In this document: positions 3,287 through 56,664 of the stretch, piece after piece
Numbering within the stretch: position 1 is the stretch's first letter
Layout: each line of letters starts with the position of its first letter
Translations under genes and position numbers: made by a program
The notes under the pieces: model-generated
What the model saw: the letters and a program-made list of their open reading frames with translations, nothing else
Databases searched by the model: none
Told to the model about the DNA's origin: nothing
NCBI GenBank assembly: GCA_037481875.1
Contig: JBBFKY010000006.1
Location: 1-64,000 of the forward strand
Direction of reading: 5' to 3'
DNA: 64,000 bases
Origin: Desulfosoma sp.
GTDB taxonomy: Bacteria; Desulfobacterota; Syntrophobacteria; Syntrophobacterales; DSM-9756

Positions 3287-3474
3287 AAAAAAGGGGACGC
3301 CCCCGCCTTGTGCCGTGTCGGCAGTCGGTCTTGAACCGATTCAGCGAAGTGGGTGTTCCGTCGTTCCTTTAGGCACGTCGACCCTGCAACGCGCACACCG
3401 GAACGAGAGGGAACTCCCCGTTTGTTGGTGTTGGCTCAGGAACGCTCTACCAATCACGAGCACCGCAGGGGCTC
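3287..3474 (-). ncRNA. ssrS: 6S RNA, RNA polymerase holoenzyme regulator
   Basis: The minus strand carries blocks characteristic of 6S RNA in the right order. The 5' arm reads TTCCTGAGCC, the centre contains GTGTGCGCG then GCCTAAAGGAACGACG and CACCCACTTCGC, and the 3' arm has GGTTCAAG. A closing stem forms between 3455-3463 and 3310-3317 (eight pairs and one bulged U). The GCCCC of the 5' arm can also pair with GGGGC at the 3' end. The RNA ends in a GC hairpin followed by six U (3287-3292). 6S mimics an open promoter and sequesters the sigma-70 holoenzyme. The 5' end is approximate. A place just upstream of rny is a recurrent 6S context in this phylum, as I recall it. Confidence 0.7.
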
Positions 3475-21873: not shown

Positions 21874-21904
21874 CGGCGGGATTCCGATGAGGAGCTCCGT
21901 TCGC

Positions 21905-21985
21905 CAATCCCTCCGCCAGCATGACCTGGATCAGGTTCAAGGGGTACCTTCTCAGCCCTCACCTTTCTCGAGGACGCCCCCTGGC
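21905..21985 (-). promoter_or_regulatory. TPP riboswitch (THI element)
   Basis: The minus strand contains the highly conserved THI-box strings GGGCTGAGA, ACCCTTGAACCTGATC-type sequence (here CCCCTTGAACCTGATC) and CATGCTGGCGGAGGGA, in the right order and spacing for helices P1 to P5. It lies 120 bases upstream of thiC. Binding of thiamin pyrophosphate would repress thiC-thi4. Confidence 0.95.
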
Positions 21986-22020
21986 GATCATGAGTTAACT
22001 AACAAATTAAATGGAATGAA

Positions 22021-49794: not shown

Positions 49795-49849
49795 ATGTGA
49801 AGTGATGGCTCATGGGGTGATATGTGTCTTTTTTCACAGGAGGTCAAAG

Positions 49850-52800
49850 ATGAAGCTGTCGCGTAGAGATTTTCTAAAGATTTCTGGAGCGGCGACGGCG
49901 GGTTTGGCCTTGAGCGGCTGTACGACCATGGGCTACCAAAAAAAGCCTGTGGAAGAGCAAGCCTGGAAGCTCAGGACCAAAGACGCCAAAGAAACGCCTT
50001 CCGTGTGCTGCTATTGCGGTGTGGGCTGCGGCATCATTTGCCACACAGACCGACAGACGGGCAAGGTGATCTACACGGAAGGTGATGCCGACAGTCCCAT
50101 CAATCAAGGATCTTTGTGTGCCAAGGGGGCTTCTTCTTATCAATTAGCCATCAACGACAGGCGGGTTACCAAAGTCCTCTACCGAGCCCCCTACAGCGAC
50201 AAATGGGAAGAAAAGTCGTGGGATTGGGCCATCAAAGAAATCGCGGCTCGCGTCAAAACCAGCCGGGACAAAAGTTTTAAGGTTCAGAACGCCAAGGGAG
50301 AAGTGGTCAACCGATGCGAGGGGATTGCTTCAGTGGGCAGCGCCGCTCTGGATAACGAAGAATGCTGGATCTACCAAGCCATGCTGCGTGCCCTGGGACT
50401 GGTCTATATTGAGCATCAGGCCCGTATTTGACACAGCCCCACGGTAGCGGCTCTGGCAGAGTCGTTCGGACGCGGCGCAATGACCAATCATTGGAATGAT
50501 CTACAAAACAGCGATTGCATCCTTATCATGGGAAGCAACGCAGCGGAGAATCATCCGATCTCCTTTCGCTGGATCATGAAGGCCAAAGAGCGAGGAGCCA
50601 TCCTTATCCATGTGGATCCTCGCTACACACGCACCTCGGCAAAAGCTGATTTCTACACGGCATTGCGTTCCGGCACGGATATTGCCTTCCTTGGCGGCAT
50701 GATCAACTACATCCTTTCTAATAATCTCTACTTCAAGGATTACGTCATCCACTATTCCAACGCCAGCTTCATCGTGGGACCGAAATACGACTTCAAGGAC
50801 GGCTTGTTTTCGGGATTCGATCCTGTCACTCGAAAGTATGACAAGAGTACATGGGCTTACGAACTGGACGAAAACGGAGTTCCCAAAAAAGATCTTACGT
50901 TGAAACATCCCCGTTGTGTTTTCCAATTACTGAAAAAACACTATTCTCGATACACTTTGGATAAGGTTTCCAAAGTCACAGGCACACCCAAAGAAGATCT
51001 CAAAAAGGTTTACGAACTTTACAGTGCCACCGGAAAGTCGGACAAAGCTGGGACGATTCTTTACGCCATGGGCTGGACGCAGCACACTGTAGCTGCTCAG
51101 AACATTCGAGCTATGGCGATCATTCAGATCCTCTTGGGCAACATGGGCATCGCCGGGGGTGGTGTGAACGCTTTGCGTGGGGAATCCAACGTGCAGGGCT
51201 CCACGGACCATGCCCTGCTGTATCACATTTGGCCGGGTTATAACCCTGTGCCGACTGGCTCGGTTCCCACTCTGGCCGACTACATCAAGAAGTACACTCC
51301 GGTGTCAAAAGATCCCTTGAGCGCCAACTGGTGGCAGAACCGGCCCAAATACGTGGTCAGTTTTCTGAAAGCCATGTTTGGCGACGCCGCCGATGCCTCC
51401 AACGACTTCGGTTACGCTTGGATGCCGAAGCTGGATGACGGCAAGGCTTACAGTTGGCTGGATCTTTTTGATGCCATGTATCAAGGTCAGTTCACCGGCT
51501 TTTTCGCTTGGGGGCAGAACCCTGCCTGCAGCGGCGCGAATTCCGTGAAAACACGCGAAGCCTTGGCGAAACTGGACTGGATGGTCAATGTGAACCTGTT
51601 CCAGAATGAGACAGCCTCTTTTTGGCACGCTCCGGGTGTGGATCCCAAGAAGATCAAAACGGAAGTGTTCTTCTTGCCTTGCGCCGCCTTTATGGAAAAG
51701 GAAGGCTCTGTCACCAATTCCGGCCGATGGGCTCAATGGCGTTACAAGGCCCAGGATCCTCCGGGAGAAGCCAAACCCGACGGGGACATTATCGTGGAAC
51801 TCTTTGGAGAAATCCGCAAGCTGTACGCCAAGGAGGGCGGGGCCTTTCCTGATCCGATTCTCAAACTCAAATGGGACTACACAACCAACGGCCATTTCGA
51901 TCCCCATAAAGTGGCTCGAACCATCAACGGTGAATTCACCAAAGAGGTCACTATCGGTGACAAAACCTACAAAAAAGGCCAATCGGTGCCGTCTTTTGCG
52001 CTCCTGCGTGATGATGGCTCCACCAGCAGCGGCTGCTGGATCTATTGCCAGAGTTACACGGAAGACGGCAACAAGATGGCCCGTCGAGACAACAAGGATA
52101 CCAGCGGCATTGGGCTCTATTCCAACTGGGCTTGGTGTTGGCCTCTAAATCGACGCATCCTCTACAATCGAGCCTCCGTAGATCTCATGGGCCGACCGTG
52201 GAACCCAAATCGACCGGTGATCAGCTTTGCGGGTGAAGTGAAGGAAGGCAAGTACGTCTCTTCCAAATGGGTCGGCGATGTTCCGGACGGTGCCTGGTAT
52301 CCCATGATGAATCCGGACGGCACTCCGCGCTCCGACAGCAAATACCCGTTTATCATGAAGCCACACGGCTTTGCGGATATTTTCGGCCCAGGCCTTGCCG
52401 ACGGTCCTTTCCCGGAACACTATGAACCCATAGAGTGCCCTGTGGAAAAGAACCTGTTCAGCTCTCAATTCACCAATCCCGTGGCGGCCATGTTCGGCAC
52501 AGACAAAGATATCTACAGAACGTGCGATCCTCGGTATCCTTTTGTAGGCACCACGTACCGGGTGACCGAACATTGGCAAACGGGCGTGCTCACACGATGG
52601 CAGCCCTGGCTTCTCGAGACGGAACCTCAGGTGTTTGTGGAAATGAGCGAAGAGCTGTCCAAGCTGCGAGGGATCAAAAACGGGGAGACGGTTATTGTGG
52701 AATCGGCTCGGGGTTCCTTGGAAGCGGTAGCCATTGTGACCAAGCGTTTTCGGCCTTTGCTTGTCCATGGGCAGGAAATTCACCAAGTGGGACTGCCGTG

Positions 52801-52933
52801 GCATTACGGATGGGTCTGGCCGCCGCAGGGAGGAGATAGCGCTAATTTGCTCACGCCTTCAGCGGCGGATCCCAATACTCGAATTCCTGAAACCAAAGCG
52901 TTTATGGTCAACGTGCGTAAGAAGGGAGCCTAG
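49850..52933 (+). CDS. fdhA: Selenocysteine-containing formate dehydrogenase, catalytic subunit
   Basis: Oxidises formate to CO2 (or the reverse) at a Mo/W-bis-pyranopterin site in the periplasm. The twin-arginine signal LSRRDFLK starts at residue 3. A [4Fe-4S] motif (CCYCGVGCGIIC) lies near 46-57, and the molybdopterin oxidoreductase and dinucleotide-binding domains follow. The frame is interrupted only by TGA at 50429-50431, residue 194. It is followed by HSPTVAALAESFGRGAMTNHW, so TGA encodes the active-site selenocysteine next to its conserved histidine. Full length is 1,027 residues. The start follows AGGAGG. Annotation as two separate genes would be an error. Confidence 0.96.
50429..50464 (+). 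promoter_or_regulatory. Selenocysteine codon and bacterial SECIS element
   Basis: TGA at 50429-50431 is followed 16 bases later by a seven-pair stem (CGGCTCT / AGAGTCG, one G-U pair) with the loop GGC. Position and size match the bacterial SECIS hairpin that recruits SelB in fdhF-type genes, although the loop is not identical to the E. coli GGUCU loop. Confidence 0.85.
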
Positions 52934-53668: not shown

Positions 53669-53720
53669 CGGTCTGTTTGAAGGAAGGTGTTAACTCCATA
53701 GAACCATGAACTTTTTCGCG

Positions 53721-53749
53721 AGGGACGGGGTGGCCCGTCCCTCTTTTTT
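53721..53749 (+). terminator. Rho-independent terminator between fdhB and fdhE
   Basis: A perfect nine-base stem (AGGGACGGG / CCCGTCCCT) with a GTGG loop is followed by CTTTTTT. It lies 52 bases after fdhB and 20 bases before fdhE, so fdhE is expected to be expressed at a lower level by read-through or from its own promoter. Confidence 0.92.
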
Positions 53750-53768
53750 CCGTGCAAAGGATGCCCTT

Positions 53769-54674
53769 ATGTCCCTGGACGCTGAAACGACAATGCGAAA
53801 GGCGGTAAACCTTGCCCGCAGCACGAAACCAGCCTATCACGAACTGTACGATTTTCTCGAGAGTGTTTTCGCATCTCAATTAAAGGTCAAACCCCGATGC
53901 AAGGTTTCCCTTAAACCCATAAAGCTCCAAACCATTCATGCTCAGTGGCATGCGGGTCGCCCCTTGATACGCCGTTGGGAATTCCCCTTGGATATCGAAG
54001 CCGCTGAAGAGGTCCTTGACGGGATCACCCAGGCAGTGCCGGCAGACAATCGGGAACTTTCAGGGGCATGTGCAGCCCTTTCGCAAGCCTTGACCAGGAA
54101 CCCTTCGGCCAAAGACGCCATCTGGGAAAGTTTTTTGCACCATGAATGGAACCCATGGGAGGAATGGGTGGAAACCTTCGGAGTGGACTTACCTTCTTTG
54201 CTCTACGTGGCACGCAGTTGCCTTCGTCCCAGCCTGGAAAAAACCGCGGAAGAATTGCTCAAAACCGTGTCCCCCGATGATCTTTGGCAAGAGGGGTACT
54301 GCCCGGTGTGTGGGTCTTTACCTTCCCTGATCACCCTTGAAGGAGAGGGATTTCGACGCGGCCACTGTTCTTGGTGCGGCACACCGTGGCGCCTGGCTCG
54401 ATTTCAGTGTCCCGTATGCAACAATCGCCGCCATGAATCTCTAGGCTACCTGTATTCAGATGAAGAACCCGGTTACCGCATTGACTACTGTAACCAATGC
54501 CGCCACTACTTTAAAACCATCGACGCTCGAGAACGACTTTGGCCTTTATGGATCCTTTTGGAAGAATGGACCACGTTGCACCTGGATCTGGTGGCCCAAC
54601 GCGCCCGATGGAAAACACCGCCCTCACCGGCTCCAGCCGTCTATGATATCGACACGTCCAGCGTTCCGTCTTGA
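53769..54674 (+). CDS. fdhE: Formate dehydrogenase accessory protein FdhE
   Basis: Maturation factor needed for active formate dehydrogenase, thought to bind the catalytic subunit before export. The 301-residue protein has four CxxC pairs (Cys178/181, 200/203, 214/217, 241/244) in rubredoxin-like zinc or iron sites, as in the family. The start at 53769 follows AAAGGATG; an in-frame ATG at 53706 lies before the terminator and is unlikely. It sits directly behind the fdhAB genes. Confidence 0.9.
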   Translation: MSLDAETTMRKAVNLARSTKPAYHELYDFLESVFASQLKVKPRCKVSLKPIKLQTIHAQWHAGRPLIRRWEFPLDIEAAEEVLDGITQAVPADNRELSGACAALSQALTRNPSAKDAIWESFLHHEWNPWEEWVETFGVDLPSLLYVARSCLRPSLEKTAEELLKTVSPDDLWQEGYCPVCGSLPSLITLEGEGFRRGHCSWCGTPWRLARFQCPVCNNRRHESLGYLYSDEEPGYRIDYCNQCRHYFKTIDARERLWPLWILLEEWTTLHLDLVAQRARWKTPPSPAPAVYDIDTSSVPS

Positions 54675-54768: not shown

Positions 54769-56664
54769 ATGGTCTGGACGCGTCACTGGCAGACTCTTTA
54801 TCGCCAACGAATAGGGGACGCTGCACAGATTCTTACCAAAGTGCTGCAAGATGGTTGCCGAGTTTTTGTGGGGTCAGCGGCGGCCGAACCGCAGCATCTT
54901 GTCCGGGCCATGCTCAAGGTGCTTCCCGGGTATCGAGACGTGGAAATCTTTCAGGCTCTGTCCATGGGAGCTCTTCCTGAAGATTGGTCCGATCTTTCCA
55001 AGCACGCTCGATTGCGTACCTTTTTCCTTGGGCCCAAGAGCCGTAAGGCGGCCAATTCAGGGCTTGCGGACTACATTCCTCTTTATTTCAGCCAGGTGCC
55101 CAAGCTTCTTCGGGAAGAAAGTGCTTTGGGACGAGATGTAAGTCTCATTCAAGTGTCCCCGCCCGACGACCATGGTTTTTGTTCCTTGGGTATCGGGGTC
55201 GACATTGCCAAGATTGCCGCGGAACATTCCCAGGTGGTCATCGCTCAAGTAAACCCTTGCATGCCTCGAACGCTGGGGGACAGTTTTCTGCATGTCAGCC
55301 GCATTCATCATTTTGTGGAATATGAAGAACCCCTTTTGGAACTGACCTACGGGGAAAAGAGCGCCATGGCTGAACGCATGGCGCGCTATGTCTCCAGCCT
55401 GATTGAAGACGGCGCTACCATTCAAGTGGGCTTGGGACGGATTACCAATGCGGTGCTTCGCCTTCTCGTGGACAAGAGAGACCTGGGCGTTCATTCGGAA
55501 ATGATCACCGACGCCCATTTGGAACTCATTCGCAAAGGGGTCATCACGGGCCGTCGTAAATCCCTTCACCGCGGCAAGGTGATCACCAGTTTTTGTGTCG
55601 GATCCCGTCAGCTTTACGACTTTGTTCACAACAACCCACAAGTTGAATTTCACCCTATTGACTATGTCAACGACAGTCGCGTCATCAGCCAAAACGACTA
55701 CATGACGGCCATCAATTCCGCTCTGGAAATCGACCTCACAGGCCAGGTTTGCGCCGATTCCATAGGACAAAAGATCTACAGCGGTATTGGCGGGTATGTG
55801 GATTTTATGCTCGGGGCTTCCAGCGCATACCGCGGAAAATCCATCATCGTCTTACCTTCCACCAGCCCTGATGGAAGAAAGTCCCGCATCGTGAGTCGTT
55901 TGACAGACGGTGCCGGGGTGGTGAGTTCCCGCAGTGCGGTGCAATACGTGGTCACCGAATTCGGTATCGCCTCGCTCCATGGCAAGACCATTCGAGAAAG
56001 AGCTCTTGCCTTGATTAACATCGCGCATCCAAAATTCCGGGAAAGACTCTTGGAGGAAGCTAAACAACTTCGCTATGTCTACCAAGATCAGATTCTTCCT
56101 CCCATCTTTGAGCCTCTTTATCCCGGACAGTGGGAAACACATCAGATCTTTCCGGAAAACGAAAAGGTCTTTTTCAGGCCCATCAAACCCACAGATGAAA
56201 GAGCGCTTCAGGAATTTTTCTATTCCCTGCCGGACCAAGACATTTATTATCGATTCCTTTCGGCCATGCGGGTCTTTCCTCATCGGGACACCCAGGCCAT
56301 GTGCAATATCGACTACCAACAGGAAATGGCCATTGTGGGGGTGATCGGAGAAATAGGGGCCGAGACGATTATTGCTCTGGGCCGCTATATTCTGGACCAA
56401 AAGACTAACATGGCTGAAGTAGACTTTGCGGTGCGTGCGGAATGGCAACGCAAAGGTATCGGAACCTTTCTACTTCACTACTTATGCGAAATCGCCAAGA
56501 CCAAAGGGATTACAGGCTTTACGGCCTACGTGCTAGCCTCCAACAGAAAAATGCTCTCTGTTTTTCATAAAGTCGGCTATGTGGTTCACAGCACCTTGGA
56601 AGACGGCATCTATGAAATTTCTTTTCGCTTTGACCAGCCGTCTCAAGTATGCTTGACAGAGTGA
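54769..56664 (+). CDS. Acetyl-CoA hydrolase/transferase with C-terminal GNAT domain
   Basis: Residues about 1-440 match the acetyl-CoA hydrolase/4-hydroxybutyrate CoA-transferase family, with the likely catalytic Glu244 in HSEMITD and the glycine-rich GVHSEM and GIGGYVDFM stretches. Residues about 465-625 form a GNAT acetyltransferase domain with the acetyl-CoA loop EWQRKGIGTFLL. The fusion is 631 residues without frame disruption. The GNAT part might regulate the transferase or other enzymes by lysine acetylation, as with some acetyl-CoA synthetases; this is inference. AAGGAACAAGGA precedes the start. Confidence 0.88.
   Translation: MVWTRHWQTLYRQRIGDAAQILTKVLQDGCRVFVGSAAAEPQHLVRAMLKVLPGYRDVEIFQALSMGALPEDWSDLSKHARLRTFFLGPKSRKAANSGLADYIPLYFSQVPKLLREESALGRDVSLIQVSPPDDHGFCSLGIGVDIAKIAAEHSQVVIAQVNPCMPRTLGDSFLHVSRIHHFVEYEEPLLELTYGEKSAMAERMARYVSSLIEDGATIQVGLGRITNAVLRLLVDKRDLGVHSEMITDAHLELIRKGVITGRRKSLHRGKVITSFCVGSRQLYDFVHNNPQVEFHPIDYVNDSRVISQNDYMTAINSALEIDLTGQVCADSIGQKIYSGIGGYVDFMLGASSAYRGKSIIVLPSTSPDGRKSRIVSRLTDGAGVVSSRSAVQYVVTEFGIASLHGKTIRERALALINIAHPKFRERLLEEAKQLRYVYQDQILPPIFEPLYPGQWETHQIFPENEKVFFRPIKPTDERALQEFFYSLPDQDIYYRFLSAMRVFPHRDTQAMCNIDYQQEMAIVGVIGEIGAETIIALGRYILDQKTNMAEVDFAVRAEWQRKGIGTFLLHYLCEIAKTKGITGFTAYVLASNRKMLSVFHKVGYVVHSTLEDGIYEISFRFDQPSQVCLTE

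Follow-up and report, generated by a model that had tools for sequence, protein, structure and literature searches.

Does the in-frame TGA of a formate dehydrogenase gene from Desulfosoma sp. encode the active-site residue of the enzyme, and can that residue be said always to be selenocysteine? In the window, the whole 64,000-nucleotide stretch of DNA that was analysed, a forward-strand frame at 49850–52933 runs for 1027 residues and has a sole internal stop, the TGA of codon 194 (50429–50431). The original prediction read this frame as a selenoprotein formate dehydrogenase translated through UGA. The single TGA and the flanks that it had named (QARI before, HSPTVAALAESFGRG after) are borne out by the sequence and its translation. 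It had also warned that automatic annotation would break the gene in two, and a mechanical list of open reading frames does just that, giving 49802–50431 (209 aa) and 50480–52933 (817 aa). The gene, fdhA, needs to be annotated as one selenoprotein; when it is split, the active-site residue is lost and the family match is broken in two.

Table 1. Position of fdhA, its neighbours and its sequence elements in the window
Feature	Coordinates	Strand	Basis
Shine-Dalgarno-like GGAGGT, upstream of fdhA start	49839..49844	+	Direct reading of sequence
fdhA, formate dehydrogenase alpha subunit, 1027 residues, one in-frame TGA	49850..52933	+	TIGR01553, Pfam and PDB matches
Predicted Tat signal (RRDFLK) with lipobox-like LSGC	49850..49927	+	Pfam TAT_signal, 28.8 bits; Cys24 is the predicted lipid-modified residue
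TGA codon 194, probable selenocysteine	50429..50431	+	Sequence, PDB alignments, homologue codons
Probable bacterial SECIS hairpin, core GCGGCUCU-GGC-AGAGUCGU	50447..50465	+	RNA fold, synonymous conservation, stem counts
fdhB, iron-sulfur beta subunit, 243 residues	52937..53668	+	PDB 6sdr_B 273.8 bits, 1h0h_B 258.5 bits
FdhE-like formate dehydrogenase accessory protein, divergent	53706..54674	+	Pfam FdhE_central 29.3 bits, cut-off 27

The family assignment agrees with the prediction. The product matches TIGR01553 over residues 3–1024 with 1509.9 bits (cut-off 814.2), and is the only one in the genome to exceed that cut-off. Its Pfam domains are Molybdop_Fe4S4, Molybdopterin, the dinucleotide-binding Molydop_binding and TAT_signal, and the nearest solved chains are Desulfovibrio gigas 1h0h_A, with 1497 bits, and the FdhA of D. 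vulgaris, with up to 1475.2 bits. In the PDB alignments, the rows of 1h0h and 6sdr show X, a modified residue, opposite residue 194, and the 9qm0 row shows C; the gene has TGA where its homologues have Sec or Cys. The Cys motif CCYCGVGC from residue 53, SLCAKGA from 88 and NALRGE from 440 all fit the family expectation, and we take Lys92 and Arg443 to be the active-site Lys and Arg. The active-site motif, U194-H195-S-P, matches UHxP, given as the formate dehydrogenase family motif in Table 1 of PMC13188914.

The prediction would have been refuted had the genome lacked selenocysteine machinery. The assembly (3.40 Mb, 19 contigs, 99.56% complete) encodes SelA (630.2 bits), SelB (415.8 bits) and SelD (384.6 bits), each above its family cut-off, and a tRNA-Sec with a UCA anticodon (74.5 bits, above cut-off); selA, selB, selC and selD are all present. 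The selD gene (L018:1531, on contig C8) has exactly one in-frame TGA, near the N-terminus (GAG-U-ASK), and the selenophosphate synthetase therefore looks like a selenoprotein itself. Further selenoprotein candidates on contigs C6, C12 and C14 (L236, L237, L029 and L030) comprise two FlpD genes and two FDH-like paralogues with a TGA in each, placed at differing Cys positions in the two FlpD genes. In each of the four, the TGA is followed by a hairpin whose loop contains or adjoins GG. Folding z-scores of the post-TGA hairpins were −2.57 and −2.90 for FlpD at C6:144480 and C12:24072, −3.13 and −0.85 for the FDH paralogues at C14:20623 and C14:63777, and 0.52 for SelD.

All 59 related genomes searched gave a match to the enzyme, in many cases in the form of another member of the family. 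Codon 194 was readable in 46 of 47 loci, as TGA in 41, TGT in three and TGC in two; the exception, L067, is a fragment that starts downstream of the codon. A further 80 named loci, the best of 511 encoding a relative, bring the set to 126, of which 112 are distinct by codons; in these, codon 194 is TGA in 99, Cys in 13 (TGC in eight, TGT in five) and nothing else. A genuine stop or a sequencing error at this position, leaving a pseudogene or two genes as the split in the mechanical list would have it, has next to no probability and appears refuted in practice, because TGA also stands at this codon in the homologues (99 of the 112, the best 80 of 511 included); moreover, the two halves fall within a single family match along their whole length, and the genome has the Sec machinery.

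The seven-pair stem that had been placed 16 bases after the TGA is found there. Its pairs (CGGCUCU/AGAGUCG, 50448–50454 with 50458–50464) enclose a GGC loop (50455–50457) that begins 24 nt past the TGA, with 23 nt between; in the minimum-energy fold the stem gains two more pairs on the outside and begins 15 bases after the TGA. In the Fig. 2 legend of a 2026 review (PMC13188914), the bSECIS model has a loop of 3–9 nt, a stem of 4–16 bp, G at loop positions one and two, a spacing of 16–37 nt and an MFE of −7.5 kcal/mol or lower. The fdhA hairpin, with a 3-nt loop (GGC), a stem of 7–9 pairs, a spacing of 23 nt and an MFE of −16.5 kcal/mol, satisfies all constraints of the model as that legend gives it. 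Its folding energy is unexceptional against dinucleotide shuffles (z of 0.32, −0.18 and 0.04 for three overlapping stretches), and we dropped energy as evidence for a SECIS and used synonymous conservation instead. We also rejected the idea that the selenoproteins of this genome share one SECIS sequence: the 18-nt core GCGGCTCTGGNAGAGTCG is not found elsewhere, and when up to two mismatches were allowed there was one other site (with two mismatches), as there was for the reversed-pattern control.

A z-score of about zero and the high conservation of the peptide AALAESFGRG itself could be taken to mean that the stem is a by-product of a conserved protein and codon bias, and not a SECIS. The synonymous sites make this very improbable. 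Codons +6 to +11 (GCG GCT CTG GCA GAG TCG) have a modal-codon share of 1.0 among those of the 99 TGA rows that retain the amino acid. Across the TGA rows, the window of 10 codons from +6 to +15 has the top codon uniformity of 332 windows (a value reached by two, itself included), and it is the best of 716 windows in the 28 TGA rows of at least 70% identity. In the 13 Cys rows, by contrast, the same window is ordinary (0.574, reached by 249 of 272 windows): these homologues, whose peptide is identical or almost so, vary their synonymous sites freely, and 11 of the 13 lose the stem. All seven pairs are intact in 97 of 99 TGA rows versus two of 13 Cys rows, in the set that includes the best 80 of 511, and in 92 of 94 versus two of 13 when one row is kept per cluster of 90% codon identity. 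A bSECIS search had been proposed as a check on the original prediction, and it comes out in favour on both counts, since the constraints in the legend cited above hold and the frozen synonymous sites and stem are found in TGA rows, not in Cys rows. We conclude that selection acts on the RNA of the hairpin beyond the protein. Six codons that are frozen beside TGA and released beside Cys amount to a clean demonstration of a SECIS from sequence only, and the same contrast between TGA and Cys homologues is usable to annotate other SECIS elements.

Among the TGA rows, the exceptions are L085, which is without this stem, and L181, which has six of the seven pairs. The coupling of hairpin and TGA is also imperfect in the other direction, because two Cys rows, L157 and L169, keep the hairpin. 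Sense-codon recoding was considered for L169 (TGT, hairpin intact) and set aside: decay is likelier, His195 and Arg443 are lost, and only a UCA tRNA-Sec was found among its Sec-like tRNAs. L157 (genome G059) has TGC at codon 194 and an intact stem, and its genome encodes, besides tRNA-Sec(UCA), a Sec-like tRNA whose anticodon is GCA; this row represents either a recent change from Sec to Cys or a Cys codon that is hairpin-directed. The stem is nearly invariant within the FDH set, which therefore gives almost no covariation support.

Because fdhB and an FdhE-like gene come after fdhA, the enzyme appears to be an exported FdhAB of the Desulfovibrio type. The fdhB start lies three bases past the fdhA stop. 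Against TIGR01582, fdhB scores 158.6 bits, under the cut-off of 334.7, and the FdhE-like gene scores 45.5 bits against TIGR01562, under the cut-off of 187.65. A lipobox motif marks a Cys for lipid modification. Cys24 with the lipobox-like LSGC or LGGC is present in six of 112 distinct homologues (the best 80 of 511 among them), L039–L044, all from Desulfosoma and Desulfacinum, and the motif is confined to those rows. Relative to the next relatives, their signals have an inserted CTT, and the AYA-like cleavage site of those relatives is replaced. The alpha subunit of Desulfosoma and Desulfacinum would thus be predicted to be lipid-anchored, and the enzyme may have changed from a free to a lipid-anchored form; a literature search on lipoprotein formate dehydrogenases found no relevant report. 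Elsewhere in the window, 54769–56664 encodes an acetyl-CoA hydrolase/transferase with a GNAT acetyltransferase domain fused at its C-terminus, and Rfam models match a 6S RNA (3296–3474, minus strand, 82.8 bits) and a TPP riboswitch (21890–21991, minus strand, 69.1 bits).

The fdhA gene with its TGA codon and frozen hairpin, selA, selB, selC, selD and fdhB are all present in the sequence. From it we infer the actual insertion of Sec, the metal, the export and the electron acceptor of FdhAB. Almost certainly, in our view, fdhAB specifies a periplasm-directed formate dehydrogenase of the Desulfovibrio type in which active-site residue 194 is selenocysteine. A ribosome would reach UGA194 while SelB binds the hairpin beginning 16 nt downstream; SelB would deliver Sec-tRNA-Sec(UCA), and insertion of Sec would compete with release factor. 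Once complete, the alpha subunit would bind Mo/W-bis-pyranopterin and one [4Fe-4S] cluster and, in folded form, be exported via Tat together with FdhB. As such, fdhA is ordinary and of low surprise, a member of a well-known type of selenoprotein formate dehydrogenase. The more interesting question is whether a second SelB in this genome, SelB*, and its tRNA share UGA194.

The second match to the tRNA-Sec model (C2:315649–315738, 54.4 bits) and the second SelB (C2:316899–318791, 307.6 bits) are both above cut-off. The tRNA has predicted Cys identity: its anticodon is GCA, position 73 is U (U73), the acceptor has 8 bp, and the 4-bp T-stem contains a bulged A. SelB* is 34% identical to the first SelB, SelB1; it retains winged-helix domain 3 (Pfam SelB-wing_3, 43.5 bits) and the aligned residues RxxxxxLLExxDxxxxTxRxGDxR near its C-terminus. 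A selC* tRNA-Cys with selB* was reportedly described by Mukai et al. in 2017 and by Vargas-Rodriguez et al. in 2018, and tRNA-ReC is presumably a name for such a selC*-type tRNA. Section 6 of the review PMC7609411 lists for selC* tRNA-Cys the features of the C2 tRNA, with a second selB downstream, and notes the arrangement in Syntrophobacterales and Desulfobacterales; passages of PMC7609411 and PMC11415595 report that a selC*-type tRNA-Cys lets SelB read UGA as Cys. In the genome studied here, the 8-bp acceptor, U73, the GCA alternative of GCA or UCA, the bulged A and the downstream selB all occur together, and the second system appears to be of this published kind.

When 40 genomes were searched with the second SelB, the divergent type was found at 11 loci in 10 genomes. 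In a SelB tree, 10 of these 11 group together (100/100), separately from the rows of ordinary SelB; inside their group, the rows associated with GCA tRNAs and those associated with UCA tRNAs form groups of their own. The tree used 28 of 32 rows, as L093, L096, L103 and L110 were left out for an internal stop; the eleventh selB* locus (G017, L093) is thus absent and is placed by score alone. ARAGORN found a GCA tRNA beside seven of the 11 loci, a UCA tRNA beside three and none beside one, and the 10 tRNAs examined are U73 with GCA in seven and A73 with UCA in three. The latter (L196:11591–11682, L197:3400–3491 and L198:5862–5953) adjoin the selB* of relatives. In G011 and G022, the selB*/UCA-tRNA pair adjoins a Cys-type fdhAB; in G022, an assembly of 740 contigs, no other Sec-like tRNA was found at E 1e-8. 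Among the flanks of the 126 FDH loci (best 80 of 511 included), many of them 1.5 kb or shorter, that of L179, a Cys row, is the only one with a SelB-like match, which makes the flanks a weak test of an association between Cys-type FDH and selB*.

In Desulfosoma itself, a cassette at L022:9651–12849 (C2:315650–318848) holds the Sec-like tRNA-Cys(GCA), a Cys-type FlpD gene, an ORF and the divergent second selB, and a CGGC-domain gene lies upstream (L022 8912–9256). A FlpD gene stands between tRNA and selB* in all seven GCA cassettes examined. Desulfacinum infernum and D. hydrothermale (genomes G004 and G006) likewise have both fdhA and this cassette. The FlpD of the Desulfosoma cassette has Cys where its paralogue C6:144480 has an in-frame TGA; of 14 matches, three paralogues from its own genome were compared, and this one is the nearest at 57% identity. 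We rejected for now the UGU/UGC codons of the cassette FlpD as a target of SelB*: judged by eye and without a statistic in eight close cassette homologues, synonymous positions drift after the Cys pair and there is no frozen hairpin. A role of the tRNA–FlpD–selB* cassette in selenium shortage seems plausible, because a Cys-type FlpD faces a TGA paralogue and because selB* lies beside a Cys-type fdhAB in G011 and G022.

These genes raise the possibility that UGA194 is decoded in two ways, as Sec through SelB1 and tRNA-Sec(UCA) and as Cys through the second SelB and tRNA-Cys(GCA), the share being set by selenium supply. The tRNA features and downstream selB* given in section 6 of PMC7609411, the SelB-wing_3 domain and the C-terminal residues of the second SelB speak for such decoding. 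However, pairing between a GCA anticodon and UGA involves a mismatch, the identity of SelB* to SelB1 is just 34%, and binding of SelB* to the fdhA hairpin, charging of the tRNA and expression are all putative. We consider dual decoding unlikely. It is similarly doubtful that, when selenium is lacking, SelB* and tRNA-Cys(GCA) read UGA and hairpin as Cys by mispairing, in which case a slower Cys enzyme would still be made. Nevertheless, because the genome has a second SelB and a Sec-like GCA tRNA, which could place Cys at codon 194, that the residue is exclusively selenocysteine cannot be said from sequence alone. If dual reading is true, the cassette would be a selenium-shortage module that combines a decoder with a ready-made Cys isozyme, and the Desulfosoma/Desulfacinum formate dehydrogenase would offer a natural system in which to study the exchange of Sec and Cys at UGA when selenium is limiting. 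In the literature consulted, such a role of selC*/selB* is proposed without a test in an organism.

The enzyme is closest to D. gigas 1h0h and the D. vulgaris FdhAB (6sdr, 6sdv and others), which it resembles in both alpha (1497 and 1470.6 bits, respectively) and beta (258.5 and 273.8 bits), in Sec at the aligned position, in a Tat-type N-terminus and in that no cytochrome b gene was seen beside fdhAB among the neighbouring ORFs inspected and family-tested. It differs in the lipobox-like LSGC or LGGC of the Desulfosoma/Desulfacinum alpha signal, which the aligned D. vulgaris chains lack. E. coli FdnGHI (PDB 1kqf), with a Sec-type FDH-N alpha, belongs to the same family (987.1 bits) and has a related beta (147 bits). 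Unlike FdnGHI, however, fdhAB has no gamma-subunit-like gene seen beside it, and its beta subunit (243 aa) is under the FDH-beta cut-off. The hairpin fits the bacterial SECIS consensus model as outlined in PMC13188914, but its core GCGGCTCTGGNAGAGTCG is particular to fdhA within the genome. The second tRNA and SelB share the features of selC*/selB* described in those parts of PMC7609411 and PMC11415595 that deal with them; here, a Cys-type FlpD gene lies between the tRNA and selB*.
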